A stretch of DNA of 64,000 bases from Sulfurivermis fontis (lineage in GTDB: Bacteria; Pseudomonadota; Gammaproteobacteria; Thiohalomonadales; Thiohalomonadaceae), in contig NZ_AP018724.1 in NCBI RefSeq assembly GCF_004001245.1, forward strand, positions 3,154,501-3,218,500. Reading direction: 5' to 3'. Each line of letters starts with the position of its first letter. Position 1 is the first letter of the stretch. The notes below the pieces were generated by a model. The model did not search any database and had not been told where the DNA came from. It worked only from the letters and a program-made list of their open reading frames with translations. This document shows, piece after piece, positions 11,566-55,387 of this stretch. The position numbers and the translations under genes were made by a program.

Positions 11566-12201
11566 ATGAATGCAGTCAATCATTATCGCCAGGCCCAGTT
11601 TCTGCTCGGCGCCCAGCAGCTGCGCCAGCTACCCGCCGACGCGGGTATCGAGATCGCCTTCGCCGGCCGTTCCAACGCCGGCAAGTCCAGCGCCCTCAAT
11701 ACCATCACCGCCATCAAAGGCCTGGCGCGCACCAGCAAGACACCGGGACGCACCCAGCAGATCAATCTCTTCGGCCTGGACGAAGGGCGCCGGCTGGTGG
11801 ACCTGCCCGGTTACGGCTATGCCAAGGTGCCGCCGGCGATCAAGGAACACTGGCGCAAGACCTTGGAGCAGTATTTCAATACCCGTCGCTGCCTGCGCGG
11901 TCTGATCCTGCTCATGGATGTGCGTCACCCGCTTACCGAGTTCGACCAGATCATGCTCAATTGGTGCCGCCACCGGAACATGCCGGTGCATGTCCTGCTG
12001 ACCAAGGCCGACAAGCTCAAGCGCGGCCCGGCCTCGGCGGCCTTGCAACAGGTGCGGCGCATTCTGGCCTCGTACCCGGAGGCCTCGGTGCAATTGTTCT
12101 CGGCCCACGACGGTCAGGGCGTGGAAGAGGCCCGCGCCCTGCTGGATCGCTGGTTCGGCTATGGCGCCGACGCTACGGAGGGATCGGCAACGGAAGGTTA
12201 G
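11566..12201 (+). CDS. engB: Ribosome biogenesis GTPase EngB (YihA/YsxC)
   Basis: 211 aa from the ATG at 11566 ([18 protein letters not shown]); the frame is open further upstream but is not conserved there. G1 is [10 protein letters not shown]3 is [11 protein letters not shown]4 is TKADKL and G5 is FSAHDG. It acts in assembly of the large ribosomal subunit. Convergent to polA, as in many gammaproteobacteria. Its last codons are GAA-GGT-TAG, and this TAG is part of the TTAG target duplicated by the adjacent miniature element. The insertion therefore left the protein intact. Confidence 0.93.
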
Positions 12202-12406
12202 GGAAGCTCTGAATAAGTTCAGAGCTTCCGCGGCACAGGGAGGTGCCGCCATTTTTCAACGACGATAAGTCGTTGAAAAATGAAGCCGAGCGAAAATCAC
12301 ACTTTTTGCTTGGCGTGGTTTTGTCCACGGATGGACTTATGTCGCGCAGCCCAGGGAGGGGCGGGAGCGACCTGAGAAGTCCAGGATGGACTTATTCAGA
12401 CCTTCC
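12202..12406 (+). mobile_element. IS5-type miniature element (MITE), copy 1, 205 bp
   Basis: Non-coding and bounded by direct repeats TTAG (12198-12201 and 12407-12410). The ends are imperfect inverted repeats, GGAAGCTCTGAATAAGT and, inverted at the right, GGAAGGTCTGAATAAGT. The interior is a chain of palindromes: a 28-bp end palindrome, GCGGCACA/TGTGCCGC-like, TTTTTCAACGA/TCGTTGAAAAA, and GCGAAAA/TTTTGC. Two further copies are at 52.0 and 54.0 kb. Its left duplication contains the engB stop codon. Its right end is 6 bases from the U-tract template of the convergent terminator at 12413. Confidence 0.88.
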
Positions 12407-12412
12407 TTAGAC

Positions 12413-12453
12413 AAAAAAAACCCCGGTGCCGAAGGGGGGGAAGGCAGCCGGGG
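12413..12453 (-). terminator. Strong Rho-independent terminator downstream of polA / 3' end of sRNA candidate
   Basis: On the minus strand, CCCCGG(C)TGCC pairs with GGCACCGGGG (10 bp, one bulge) around a C-rich 12-base loop, followed by eight Ts (12413-12420). It is the third hairpin of the sRNA candidate and would also stop polA readthrough. Confidence 0.85.
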
Positions 12454-12545
12454 CGTATCTAAATTGCCCGGCTTAGGGGGAGGAAGCCGGGCGGTTGTTC
12501 CCACCAGGGAGAGAAGAGTGGGAAAGCGCAGAGCGCTTGACCAAT
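12413..12545 (-). ncRNA. Candidate C-rich-loop sRNA in the polA-engB interval (sX13/ErsA/Spot 42 position)
   Basis: The minus strand holds three hairpins in a row. They are TTCCCAC/GTGGGAA (12498-12504 with 12518-12524) with loop TCTTCTCTCCCTG; GCCCGGCTT/AAGCCGGGC (12466-12474 with 12484-12492) with loop CCTCCCCCT; and the terminator stem with loop TTCCCCCCCTTC. A short AAGCGC/GCGCTT hairpin sits at the 5' side. C-rich loops are suited to pairing with Shine-Dalgarno sequences. The interval between polA and engB is where Spot 42 (enterics) and ErsA (Pseudomonas) lie, and Xanthomonas sX13, with C-rich loops, lies near polA. The 5' end is a guess; no convincing promoter was found. Confidence 0.6.
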
Positions 12546-12659
12546 GAGACTGGCCCCTCCCCGAAAAGTTCTGCGATTCGCCAATTGCATCATTAATTTT
12601 TTTAATGAAGCAGATTAATCCGGCCAATGGTTGCTCAGGACCCGGCTCTGTGCCGCCGT

Positions 12660-15383
12660 TCAGTGTGCCTCGTCCCAGTTGTCGCCCACCCCCGCTTCCA
12701 CCAGCAGCGGCACCTTGAGCTCGGCAGCACCAGCCATCAGTCGCGGAATTTCCGCCCGGGCTGTATCCACATACTCCTCCGCCACCTCGAACACCAGCTC
12801 GTCATGCACCTGCATGATCATGCGCACCTTGCCACCGCTGTCCTGCTGCCAGGGATCGACGGCGATCATGGCGCGCTTGATGATGTCGGCGGCGGTGCCC
12901 TGCATCGGCGCATTGATGGCGGTGCGCTCGGCATACTGGCGGCGCTGGGCATTGCTGGCCTTGATGTCGGGCACATAGAGACGGCGGCCGAACACGGTTT
13001 CCACATAGCCCTGCGCGCGCGCCCGCTCGCGGGTTTCGTCCATGTAGCGGCGCACGCCGGGATAGCGCTCGAAGTAGCGGTCGACGTAGGTCTGCGCCGC
13101 GGCGCGATCGATGCCGAGCTGGCGCGCCAGGCCGAAGGCGGACATGCCGTAGATCAGGCCGAAGTTGATGGCCTTGGCGCTGCGGCGCATGTCGGCGCTG
13201 ACCTCATCCGGCGCGACGCCGAACACCTCGGCGGCGGTGGCGCGGTGGATGTCCTCGCCGGCGGCGAAGGCGCGCAGCAGACCTTCGTCACCGGACAGGT
13301 GGGCCATGATGCGCAGTTCGATCTGCGAGTAGTCGGCCGCCAGTAATCTGTATCCGGGGGGGGCGATGAAGGCCTGGCGGATGCGGCGGCCCTCGGGGGT
13401 GCGCACCGGGATGTTCTGTAGGTTGGGGTCGGAGGATGACAAGCGGCCGGTGGCGGCCACCGCCTGATGATAGGAGGTGTGCACCCGGCCGCTGCGGCGG
13501 CTCACCTGCTCGGGCAGGCGGTCGGTGTAGGTGGACTTGAGCTTGGCCATGCCGCGGTGCTCCAGGATCAGGCGCGGCAGGTCGTAGCCATCCAAGGCCA
13601 GCTCCTGCAACACGTCCTCGGCGGTGGACGGCTGGCCCTTGGGAGTCTTCTTCAGCACCGGCAGTTGCAGGCGCTCGAACAGGATCTCCTGGATCTGCTT
13701 GGGTGAGCCCAGATTGAACGGCCCGCCGGCGGCGCTGTAGGCCGCCTGCTCGATCTCGTTCATGCGCAGGGCCAGTTCGCCGCTCTGCCGCCTGAGCATG
13801 GCCACGTCCACCAGCACGCCGGCCCGCTCCAGACGCGACAGGATCGGCACCAGCGGCAATTCGATCGTCTCGTAGACCCGCTTCAGCGCCGGCTCGGCGG
13901 CGACGCGCGGCCACAGGGTGCGGTGCAGTTGCAGGGTGATGTCGGCATCCTCGGCGGCGTATTCCGTCGCCTGTTCGATGGGCACCTGATTGAAGCCGAG
14001 CTGTTTGACGCCCTTGCCGGCCACCTCTGCGAAACTGATAGTCTTGCGGCCGAGGTACTTGAGGGCCAGGGAATCCATGTCGTGGCGGGTGGCGGTGGAA
14101 TCCAGCACATAGGATTGCAGCATGGTGTCGTGGGCGATGCCGCGCAGTTCTATGCCATGATTGGCCAGGACGTTCATGTCGTACTTGAGATTCTGGCCCA
14201 GCTTCGCCCTGGCCGGGTCTTCCAGCAGCGGCTTGAGCCGCGCCAGCACCGCCTCACGGCCGAGCTGATCGGGGGCACCGGGGTAATCATGGGCCAGCGG
14301 CACATAGGCGGCCCGTTCCGGTTCCACGGCGAAGGATACACCGACGATCTCGGCATCCATGTAATCGAGACTGGTGGTCTCGGTGTCGAAGGCGAACAGC
14401 TCCGCCGCCGCCAGCCGGGCCAGCCACTCCTCCAGCTGCGCCAGCGTCAACACGGTGTCGTAGCGCCGTTGCGCGGTGGCCAGCGGCGTTACTGGCTCCG
14501 CCGCCGCGGCAGCCACCTCGCCACCACCCAGCAGCTCGCCCAGCCAGGTCTTGAACTCCATGCGGCCGTACCACTCGCGCAGCGCCTCGGCATCCGGCGC
14601 CGTGCGGCGCAGCTCCAGCGGTCCCTGCGCCAGCGGCACGTCGCACTTGATGGTCACCAATTGCCGCGACAGCGGCAGGAAGCCGAGGCTTTCCCGCAGG
14701 TTGTCGCCAATCTTGCCCTTGATGGCGTCGGCATGGGCGATGATCGCATCCAGGGAGCCGTATTCCTGTAACCACTTCACCGCCGTCTTCGGCCCCACCT
14801 TGGGTACGCCGGGCACGTTGTCGCTGGTGTCGCCGATGAGGGCGAGGTAATCGACGATGCGCTCCGGCGGCACGCCGAACTTCTCCACCACCCCGGCCGG
14901 GTCCATCACCGTATCGGTCATGGTGTTGACCAGGGTGATGTGTTCATCCACCAGCTGGGCCATGTCCTTGTCCCCGGTGGAGATCAGCACCGGCAGCCCG
15001 GCAGCCTCGGCCTGCCGCGCCAGCGTGCCGATGACGTCGTCGGCCTCCACGCCTTCCACCACCAGCAGCGGCAGCCCCATGGCGCGCACGATGGCATGCA
15101 GCGGCGCGATCTGGCTGGCCAGTTCCGCCGGCATGGGAGGGCGATGCGCCTTGTACTCGGCGTAGAGGTCGTCACGGAAGGTCTTGCCCTTGGCATCGAA
15201 CACCACCGCGACATGTTCCGGGTCGTAGTCGCCCAGCAGGCGGCGCAGCATGTTGACCACGCCGTACACCGCACCGGTAGGTTCGCCACGGGAATTGGTC
15301 AGGGCCGGCAGGGCGTGGAAGGCGCGATACAGATAGGAGGAGCCATCCACCAGGACCAAAGGTTTCTGCGTCGAATCAGACAT
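12660..15383 (-). CDS. polA: DNA polymerase I
   Basis: 907 aa from the ATG at 15381-15383 ([20 protein letters not shown]); the frame extends upstream without conservation. Three domains are present. The 5'-3' exonuclease occupies about 1-290 ([23 protein letters not shown]). The 3'-5' proofreading domain has its acidic residues intact ([28 protein letters not shown]). The polymerase domain has motif [15 protein letters not shown], motif [15 protein letters not shown] and motif [10 protein letters not shown]. It fills Okazaki gaps and repair patches. Divergent from the LOG-family gene with a 73-base gap. The sRNA candidate and terminator follow it. Confidence 0.97.
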
Positions 15384-15456
15384 GGATGATTTGTTTTCTG
15401 CGTTTCCGGGAATGGGACTACAATAGCCGCTTTGCCGCCAACTACGCGACACCTCC

Positions 15457-16182
15457 ATGAGCGACGATCACAAATCACACCACCCGGGCATGACGCCTCT
15501 CGATGACACCGCCCTCAGCCGCGAATCGTGGAAGATCTTCCAGATCATGGCCGAATTCGTCGAAGGCTTCGAACGCCTGGCACGCATCAGCCCCTCGGTG
15601 TCCATCTTCGGTTCGGCCCGCTTCGCCCCCGATCACCCCTATTACAAACTGACCGAGGAGATCGCCCGCGCCCTGTCCGATGCCGGCTTCTCGGTGGTCA
15701 GTGGCGGCGGCCCCGGCATCATGGAGGCGGCCAACAAGGGCGCCTACGCCGGTAAATCACCGTCGGTCGGCCTCAACATCCAATTGCCGCACGAGCAGGT
15801 GGGCAATCCCTATCAGGACATCCGCCTCACCTTCCGCCACTTCTTTTCGCGCAAGGTGATGTTCGTGAAATATGCCGCCGCCTACGTGGTGATGCCCGGC
15901 GGCTTCGGCACCCTGGACGAACTGGCCGAGATCCTCACCCTGGTGCAGACCGGCAAGACCCGCCGCATCCCCATCATCCTGGTGCACAGCCCGTTCTGGA
16001 ACGGGCTCATCGACTGGTTCCGCGACACCCTGGTGGCGGAGAAGACCATCAGCCCGGAAGACCTGGACCTGTTCCAGGTGCTGGACCACCCCCAGGACGT
16101 GGTCAATGCTATTTTCAGTCACTACGAGCACCGTGGCTTCGAGCCCTCCGCCGAAGAGCGGGAAATTCTCCTCGACCTGTGA
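15457..16182 (+). CDS. LOG-family nucleotide phosphoribohydrolase-like protein (TIGR00730 type)
   Basis: 241 aa, Rossmann-like. Both family signatures are present: [15 protein letters not shown] (near 87) and [13 protein letters not shown] (near 146), with the Arg/Glu of these motifs as in lysine-decarboxylase-like/LOG proteins. Characterised members cleave cytokinin or purine nucleoside monophosphates to base plus ribose 5-phosphate. The physiological substrate in this organism is unknown. The following DUF2782 gene starts at or just after its stop codon, indicating co-transcription. Confidence 0.85.
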
Positions 16183-51979: not shown

Positions 51980-52026
51980 GATGACCTCCCGTAGCAGTGT
52001 GACTGACCTTTGTGTCTGAAGGTTAG

Positions 52027-52179
52027 GGAAGCTCTGAATAAGTTCAGAGCTTCCGCGGCACAGGGATGTGCCGCCATTTTTCAACGACGATAAGTCGTTG
52101 AAAAATGAAGCCGAGCGAAAATCACACTTTTCGCTTGGCGTGGTCTGAGAAGTCCAGGATGGACTTATTCAGACCTTCC
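52027..52179 (+). mobile_element. IS5-type miniature element, copy 2, 153 bp (internally deleted)
   Basis: Flanked by TTAG duplications (52023-52026, 52180-52183), with ends as in copy 1. Compared with copy 1 it lacks 52 internal bases, corresponding roughly to 12323-12374, and is otherwise nearly identical. Same orientation as copy 1. It lies in the space between the HicA-like gene and the EamA transporter. The five bases preceding the duplication (GAAGG) are also the same as at copy 1. Confidence 0.88.
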
Positions 52180-52222
52180 TTAGTTGACGGCCCGGAGCGC
52201 GACCACGCACCGCTCTGCCCGG

Positions 52223-53756: not shown

Positions 53757-53968
53757 GGGAGTCGCCGAAATTGCGTGCCGGAAAATCGCTGGAGTCTGAC
53801 GCGATTCCGGAAAAATGGGAACTGCGATCGCGTGGCGGCTGCCGTCGGCGGCTGTTCCAGCGGGGCCAGCAATCCCCATCCCGGCCTCCCCGCTTTTTCC
53901 CACACCCTCCATTACCCCCGCAGGATGGGCACGCTGTCGCTTTGCCCATCCTACATCTCTACATCTAG

Positions 53969-54172
53969 GGAAGGTCTGAATAAGTCCATCCTGGACTTCT
54001 CAGGTCGCTCCCGCCCCTCCCTGGGCTGCGCGACATAAGTCCATCCGTGGACAAAACCACGCCAAGCGAAAAGTGTGATTTTCGCTTGGCTTCATTTTCA
54101 ACGACTTATCGTCGTTGAAAAATGGCGGCACATCCCTGTGCCGCGGAAGCTCTGAACTTATTCAGAGCTTCC
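53969..54172 (-). mobile_element. IS5-type miniature element, copy 3, 204 bp, inverted
   Basis: Flanked by CTAG duplications (53965-53968, 54173-54176). The full-length form is near-identical to copy 1 but in reverse orientation. Its 54173-54176 duplication carries the TAG stop codon of rlmC, so insertion occurred exactly at the end of that gene. All inner palindromes (TCAACGA...TCGTTGA, GCCAAGCGAAAA...TTTTCGCTTGGC) are preserved. Confidence 0.9.
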
Positions 54173-55387
54173 CTAGGAGCGCGCCTCACGCTCCAGCAGC
54201 GTGATCACTTCGTAATGGGCGGTATGCGGAAACATGTCCAGCAACCGTGCCCGGCGCAGGCGCAGGCCCGGCATCTGCGCCAGGTCGCGCGCCAGGGTCT
54301 CGGCATTGCAGCTGGAATAGATCACCCAGCGCGCCGCCGACTGGTCGAGAAAACGGCACAGCGCCGCGCCGATGCCGCGCCGCGGCGGATTGACGATCAC
54401 CAGCTCGGGCACCTGGGCCTTGCCCGCGGTAAAATCCGCGGCATCCAGGGCACGAAAGCTCACCCGCTCCAGCCCCAGTTCGGCACGGCTCTGCTCCGCA
54501 CTGGCGACGGCCTCGGCGCTGATCTCGATGCCGGTCACCGCACGCCGGCCGTCGGCCACATGCAGCGCAAAACCGCCGACGCCGCAGAACAGGTCCCACA
54601 CCCCGGCCGGGTCGCACTCCGCCACCCACTCGCGCCCCTGCCGGTACAAGGCCTCGGCCACCGCCGTGTTGGTCTGGAAAAAACTCTTCGGCCGCAGGTG
54701 CAGCGGGATGCCGTTGAGGCGCATGGTCAGGCTGTCTTGTTCGGTGAGCAGGATCTCCCGCTCCCCCTCCAGCACCGCCTTGTGCTCCGGCTGCAAATTC
54801 ACCGACACCACACGCAGCCCAGGCAGTGCCGCCTGCAACTCCGGCAGATACTTGCGGATGCGCCCCAGCGCCTCCTGCGAGCGCAGCACGAAGCGCGCCA
54901 TCAGCTCGCCGGAATGCTCCGCCAGGGTCACCAGCACATACTTCAACTCGCCGCGCCGCGCCGCAATGTCGTAGGGCTCGATGCGCGCCCGCCGGATGAA
55001 TGCCGCCAGCGGCGCGAAGCTCGCCTGCAACGCAGGCGGATACAGCGGACAGTCCGCCAGCGACACGCCCTGCCCCTGCTCATCGACAATCCCCAGCACC
55101 GGCGCCTCAAACGTGCCGCTCACCACCATCTTCGCCTTGTTGCGAAATCCCGCTTCGCTACTCGCCACCGGCGCCAGCCACTCGACGTCCGCCCAGTCCG
55201 CCAGCAACGCGCGGCAACGCGCCTCCTTCGCCGCCAATTGCCCGGCATAGGGCTGCTCCAGCAGCGAACAGGAGCGGCAGCGGTTGGCGGAATAGTGGGG
55301 ACAGTGCACAGAGATATTGCGAATGACGACGCGGGGCGTGCTTGCCGGTTCGATGAAATTATCGGGGCCGCCTGAATGGCACCACAT
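54173..55387 (-). CDS. rlmC: 23S rRNA (uracil-747-C5)-methyltransferase RlmC
   Basis: 404 aa. An N-terminal Fe-S cysteine cluster (CPHYSANRCRSC, with a later CPLY) is followed by FRNKAKMVVSG, RGELKYVLVT, FFQTN, the SAM motif WDLFCGVGGFALH, the NPPRRGIG block and the catalytic Cys in YSSCNAETLARDL. Close resemblance over the whole length to E. coli RlmC supports U747 as the target. The ATG overlaps the upstream gene by 29 bases; a GTG 27 codons in is the alternative start. Its TAG stop lies in a miniature-element target duplication. Confidence 0.93.
   Translation of the reverse strand: MWCHSGGPDNFIEPASTPRVVIRNISVHCPHYSANRCRSCSLLEQPYAGQLAAKEARCRALLADWADVEWLAPVASSEAGFRNKAKMVVSGTFEAPVLGIVDEQGQGVSLADCPLYPPALQASFAPLAAFIRRARIEPYDIAARRGELKYVLVTLAEHSGELMARFVLRSQEALGRIRKYLPELQAALPGLRVVSVNLQPEHKAVLEGEREILLTEQDSLTMRLNGIPLHLRPKSFFQTNTAVAEALYRQGREWVAECDPAGVWDLFCGVGGFALHVADGRRAVTGIEISAEAVASAEQSRAELGLERVSFRALDAADFTAGKAQVPELVIVNPPRRGIGAALCRFLDQSAARWVIYSSCNAETLARDLAQMPGLRLRRARLLDMFPHTAHYEVITLLEREARS

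Follow-up and report, generated by a model that had tools for sequence, protein, structure and literature searches.

What kind of RNA, if any, is encoded between polA and engB in Sulfurivermis fontis? The genome of this gammaproteobacterium is complete (3.25 Mb), and in the window analyzed here, a stretch of 64,000 nucleotides, polA (DNA polymerase I; minus strand, 12660 to 15458) and engB/yihA (a ribosome-biogenesis GTPase; plus strand, 11566 to 12201) converge, both genes being assigned from their open reading frames and by tblastn. In the interval, on the strand of its upstream neighbor polA, we delimited an sRNA gene of ∼128 nt (minus strand, 12413 to 12540) from the predicted fold, covariation, and conservation, with an approximate 5′ end (12538 to 12542). 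A preliminary description of this DNA had placed such a gene at 12413 to 12560. The gene is present, but its far end had been drawn too long because 12571 to 12545 correspond to a predicted promoter; a start of the RNA close to 12540 is most likely.

Folding of a 136-nt stretch gave −54.1 kcal/mol, against a mean of −39.2 for shuffled sequences (z = −4.07), and 0/200 shuffles equaled this value. The three C-rich hairpins of the minus strand and the terminator with eight Ts that had been noticed previously are all there, with the loops as claimed. Hairpin 1 (12498 to 12524), recognized from covariation and its conserved loop, contains CUCUCCCUG in that loop, and its C-rich segment, TCTTCTCTCCCTG, falls within about 12516 to 12504. 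Hairpin 2 (12466 to 12492), defined by covariation and fold, pairs the arms GCCCGGCUU and AAGCCGGGC around the loop CCUCCCCCU, whose C-rich part is CCTCCCCCT (12483 to 12475); folded alone, it reached a z of −4.43. Hairpin 3 (12413 to 12454), supported by the fold and by covariation helix 5, is an intrinsic terminator with the loop UUCCCCCCCUUC, including the C-rich TTCCCCCCCTTC at 12442 to 12431, followed by U8 (eight Ts at 12420 to 12413). In addition to these three, a small 5′ hairpin, AAGCGC-TCT-GCGCTT (minus strand, 12524 to 12538), is predicted by the fold and corresponds to covariation helix 1. The terminator directly abuts a repeat of ∼213 bp with inverted ends (GGGAAGCTCTGAATAAGT...ACTTATTCAGACCTTCCTTAG) at 12199 to 12411; other copies lie in the window at 53964 to 54175 and about 52020 to 52183, and the right end of the repeat has about 40 matches in the genome, as in a MITE/REP-like element.

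We then compared the RNA with its relatives. A plain MAFFT alignment of seven sequences, namely the window RNA and those from four genomes of the same genus, and two of another genus found by DNA search, contained five pairs with two-sided changes, and its covariation was above that of 500/500 shuffles (0.154 versus 0.094 in the alignment not fitted to structure). With 63 distinct homologues, two-sided changes were found in 29/31 base pairs, and we counted 402 two-sided cells versus 92 in shuffles (0/500 as high) and no more than 79 when the controls were slid, the size of this effect being flattered because the 63-sequence alignment was fitted to the model. Every pair of helix 1 (5/5) and of hairpin 2 (9/9) showed two-sided changes in this set (n = 63), and 92.9% and 96.1% of cells were paired in helix 1 and in helix 5, the terminator, respectively. 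The loops were assessed by folding single sequences, which is independent of the model fit: at least three C-rich loops formed in 51/63 homologues versus 0 to 2/63 shuffles, so the C-rich loops are no chance effect. The loop of hairpin 1 is the most conserved of them (CUCCCU in 51/63 homologues), and these loops are 57% C and 4% G. Compensatory changes in the stems and C-rich loops among relatives, both proposed in the preliminary description as checks, are thus borne out in the seven-relative and 63-sequence alignments and in the single-sequence folds, respectively, and we consider the predicted RNA structure strongly supported by comparison.

Directly 5′ of the RNA, we identified a putative promoter of the sigma-E (RpoE/AlgU) type (minus strand, 12545 to 12571), with a −35 element GAACTT at 12571 to 12566 and, after the spacer, a −10 element GTCTCA at 12550 to 12545. 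Promoters read by sigma-E/AlgU have the form GAACTT, about 16 bases, and TCTGA/GTCTAA. The motif AAC[TC]-N15/16-GTC occupies the same position in 53/63 distinct homologue upstream regions (one with a spacer of 18), and several of those without the full motif still carry GAACTT. Its GAAC form was found in 47/63 upstream regions; 300 shuffles averaged 0.44 and never exceeded 3, and 0.9% of 70-mers from the same loci carried it. The motif also precedes the RNA in 7/7 further loci of the family (L237 to L243, L237 repeating the already counted L017). These sequences are kin and therefore not independent, yet they come from so many families that the motif is unlikely to have been inherited without selection. 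In the S. fontis genome, the exact string GAACTT-N15/16-GTC occurs only 38 times on both strands. The genome encodes RpoE (316 bits); the region upstream of rpoE carries GAACT-CTTGGCAACATTAGGCA-GTCTA, which is to be expected if the gene is autoregulated, and an RseA-like open reading frame lies downstream of the gene. A sigma-70 promoter for the sRNA was also considered and rejected, since no sigma-70-like site was found in 12200 to 12700. Assignment of the predicted sRNA promoter to the sigma-E type is strongly supported by these comparisons, and the conserved sigma-E-type motif before this RNA is new in this analysis. Just 5′ of it, an AT-rich palindrome (CATTAA-AAAAA-TTAATG, minus strand, ∼12590 to 12610) is kept across the genus, which raises the question of whether it is an UP element or a regulator site.

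The distribution of the RNA was evaluated with covariance models. The first one, R1, built from the seven relatives, matched 106 of the 369 gammaproteobacterial genomes sampled, about 29%, and polA or engB is the neighbor in most cases. Matches were obtained at 33/80 named engB loci (E ≤ 0.001) and span Chromatiales, Ectothiorhodospiraceae, Thiohalophilus, Thiodiazotropha, and Sedimenticola; tblastn placed engB or polA at most 1.5 kb away in 23/28 class loci examined. A second model, R2, was built from 65 matches, none of which is called ErsA or sX13 by Rfam in the loci tested, and was run on 398 genomes of the phylum. Within the family of S. fontis, it matched 15/20 genomes examined (E ≤ 0.001), at least 12 of them at the engB-linked locus, 15/20 being an upper count because the match in genome G005 (L244) resembles a second, RF02278-like RNA. 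False R2 matches near 30 bits occur (a tRNA plus a terminator in L246/L249), and because chance matches reach this level, position is needed to count members and single weak matches prove little. The R2 matches outside the class (L196 and L197) have no polA or engB nearby and were not retained as members. Other RNAs with C-rich loops occur at L190 (1501 to 1587), whose genome belongs to the family that has sX13, and at L196 (1501 to 1598); neither engB nor polA lies within 1.5 kb of them. Some genomes have tandem copies of the sRNA, two to four in number, and four are present at L102 (G189). The copies at L102, L022, L044, L048, L072, L025, L113, and L119 (two to four per neighborhood) have diverged and are perhaps sibling sRNAs with divided targets. 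At L049, the orientation of the sRNA relative to engB is reversed.

Is the RNA independent of polA? It might be only the 3′ end of the polA transcript, with hairpins that stop readthrough or an RNA cut from the polA mRNA. In favor of this, the gene has the same strand as polA and begins 120 bases beyond its stop codon, and transcripts of polA may well end at the strong terminator as well. A terminator, however, needs neither three hairpins with conserved C-rich loops nor a sigma-E motif at fixed spacing, and neither the tandem copies nor the reversed orientation at L049 fits such an origin. Moreover, ErsA occupies the corresponding place and is an RNA in its own right, dependent on sigma22 (PMC7565897). 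Of the alternatives weighed in this study, a polA 3′ end is the one to which we give the smallest chance. An independently transcribed, trans-acting sRNA of the sigma-E regulon, with targets that have G-rich start sites, is the reading that we hold to be likely.

We then looked into the relation of the RNA to known families. The covariance search suggested in the preliminary description did not by itself assign it: the RNA scored 21.6 bits with ErsA (Pseudomon-1, RF01719; cut-off, 50), and neither sX13 (RF02232) nor Spot 42 (RF00021) gave a match at E ≤ 1. It passed no Rfam gathering score. The best family was anti-hemB (RF02837; 30.9 bits, cut-off 49.5), and matches below the cut-off were also obtained with ar14 (alpha-r14, RF02344; 30.9 bits, cut-off 58.8) and ar7 (alpha-r7, RF02342; 23.2 bits, cut-off 60), which likewise have three stem-loops with C-rich loops; ar7 adjoins polA in alphaproteobacteria (PMC3771888). 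Such scores could mean that similar RNAs arose separately in each lineage and that ErsA, sX13, anti-hemB, and the RNA described here are analogues, all the more as an unrelated C-rich family, Scr3202 of Streptomyces, also scores (24 bits). Against convergence, the interval, the strand order, and the promoter motif are all shared, and recognition works both ways. R2 recovered loci called ErsA by Rfam (L178, L179, L184, and L186, with L126 separately, in Pseudomonadaceae; 33 to 44 bits), loci called sX13 (L174, L180, and L183, in Xanthomonadaceae; 42.7 to 48.8 bits), and loci called anti-hemB (L169, L172, L173, L175 to L177, L192, and L195, in the Burkholderia family), mostly beside polA or engB and with genome-wide E values of about 1e-5 to 1e-9 for ErsA and sX13. 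Conversely, a search of 274 genomes with the ErsA model yielded ten matches, of which one is a true ErsA and nine are below threshold; 9/9 of the latter are next to engB, and eight coincide with the coordinates of R1 matches. Two homologues, L072 and L098, both in the R2 training set, pass the anti-hemB cut-off (52.8 and 51.7 bits). We therefore regard convergence as unlikely and think it probable, as part of the best explanation, that the window RNA, ErsA, sX13, and anti-hemB form one homologous RNA family of the polA-engB interval.

The proposed members resemble each other to different degrees. ErsA shares with the window RNA the polA-engB interval, the C-rich loops of hairpin 2 and the terminator, and a promoter of the sigma-E class, predicted in the case of the window RNA, but has a largely single-stranded, U-rich 5′ part instead of hairpin 1. 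sX13 is located beside polA and has three stems with C-rich apical loops; its Xanthomonadaceae-type loci L180, L183, and L187, however, have no clear sigma-E motif. Anti-hemB, which is Burkholderia RNA 7 and ncS04 of Burkholderia cenocepacia, has a hairpin 1 (CCCGCU..CUCCCUGAGCGGG) nearly identical to that of many homologues and adjoins engB at several loci, but its hairpin 2 is often not C-rich and only some loci have the sigma-E motif. The window RNA combines the model match, the polA/engB position, three C-rich loops, and the sigma-E motif of the superfamily of C-rich sRNAs that we propose. Neither ErsA, sX13, nor anti-hemB belongs to a clan in the Rfam release used, and we found no paper naming both sX13 and ErsA in the literature searched (subscription papers lay outside it), and uniting the three separately named families is apparently unpublished. 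It would give them a common, testable cue, RpoE, and knowledge of ErsA and sX13 could guide experiments in many bacteria that lack any.

Spot 42 is regulated by cAMP-CRP, not by sigma-E. It occupies the polA-yihA interval, and the best place for R2 on a 4-kb stretch of Escherichia coli was spf itself, at 17.2 bits versus a background maximum of 10.1 bits in 45 kb of E. coli; this score is, however, far under a reliable level, and homology with Spot 42 is weakly suggested. The positional family put forward in the preliminary description thus holds for ErsA and sX13, both found by a model trained without them, extends to anti-hemB, and is weak in the case of Spot 42. With somewhat less confidence than for the homology itself, we favor the view that ErsA, sX13, anti-hemB, and a large unnamed gammaproteobacterial set, perhaps with Spot 42, descend from one ancient polA-engB sRNA that formed an arm of the sigma-E response. 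The promoter would have been kept in ErsA and the window RNA and rewired in sX13 and perhaps, to cAMP-CRP, in Spot 42, a case of an sRNA that changes promoter and targets while its position stays. The enteric sigma-E sRNAs MicA, RybB, and MicL are driven by RpoE and repress outer-membrane proteins; we know of no sequence, structural, or positional similarity between them and the window RNA.

Published work bears on how such an RNA could act. ErsA is strictly sigma22 dependent and represses the porin OprD (PMC7565897), and sX13 represses mRNAs through its C-rich loops and G-rich motifs at their start sites (PMC3771888). The window RNA is therefore expected to be stress induced and to block G-rich starts. 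We propose that outer-membrane stress would release RpoE, which would read the promoter at 12571 to 12545, yielding an RNA of ∼128 nt with a terminator of its own as the 3′ end. In this RNA, the stems may serve as scaffolds presenting three C-rich single-stranded loops, which would pair with G-rich, Shine-Dalgarno-like sites (GGGAGA, GGGG, or GGAGG) at mRNA starts and block ribosomes, lowering the synthesis of a set of proteins, porins probably among them. Hfq, encoded in the genome (102 bits), probably takes part, and the RNA has a U8 tail. Expression of the RNA, its dependence on RpoE and Hfq, and the repression and identity of its targets are what we infer from sequence and from these relatives. 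Loop use and the need for Hfq may differ among members because sX13 does not require Hfq (PMC3771888) and the predicted contact of ErsA with anr involves the U-rich domain II of ErsA and not a C-rich loop (PMC8575079).

The predicted pairing of loop 1 reached an energy of −12 or better for 4/5 porin-like genes versus 12/55 start regions of the window, in a post hoc comparison with heuristic starts. This modest excess over background is consistent with porin targets, if weakly, strong Shine-Dalgarno sites being able to pair with any such loop. Likewise, the complement of loop 1 before an ATG (CAGGGAG-N3-10-ATG) has 87 matches in the genome versus 23 for the reversed control, a count that is uninformative because the motif overlaps the ordinary Shine-Dalgarno sequence. 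The dsrC/TusE gene, singled out earlier as a possible target, ranked 19 of 55 window start regions and was rejected as a special target, its pairing being what any GGAGG gene gives, and the link to sulfur metabolism is consequently not supported. CsrA binds GGA. Repeated similar loops and tandem copies do resemble RNAs that titrate proteins, and a genuine sigma-E sRNA whose C-rich loops mainly bind protein, as a CsrA-like or Hfq-type sponge, has to be weighed; the loops are, however, 57% C and 4% G, not the GGA that CsrA binds, and loop mutants of sX13 lose target repression (PMC3771888). We consider a sponge very unlikely and retain pairing with mRNA starts as the proposed mode of action.

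Finally, R2 had a second match in the S. fontis genome, outside the window (C1:421201-421312, L252), which we rejected as a paralogue of the polA-linked RNA: it is a different, RF02278-like RNA. This C-rich conserved RNA lies 5′ of an rplM-like gene, has a TTGAC-N-TATATT promoter, and has relatives at L245, L248, L250, L251, and L254. RNAs of this type resemble RF02278, "Betaproteobacteria toxic small RNA," scoring just under its cut-off (43 to 46 versus 50 bits).
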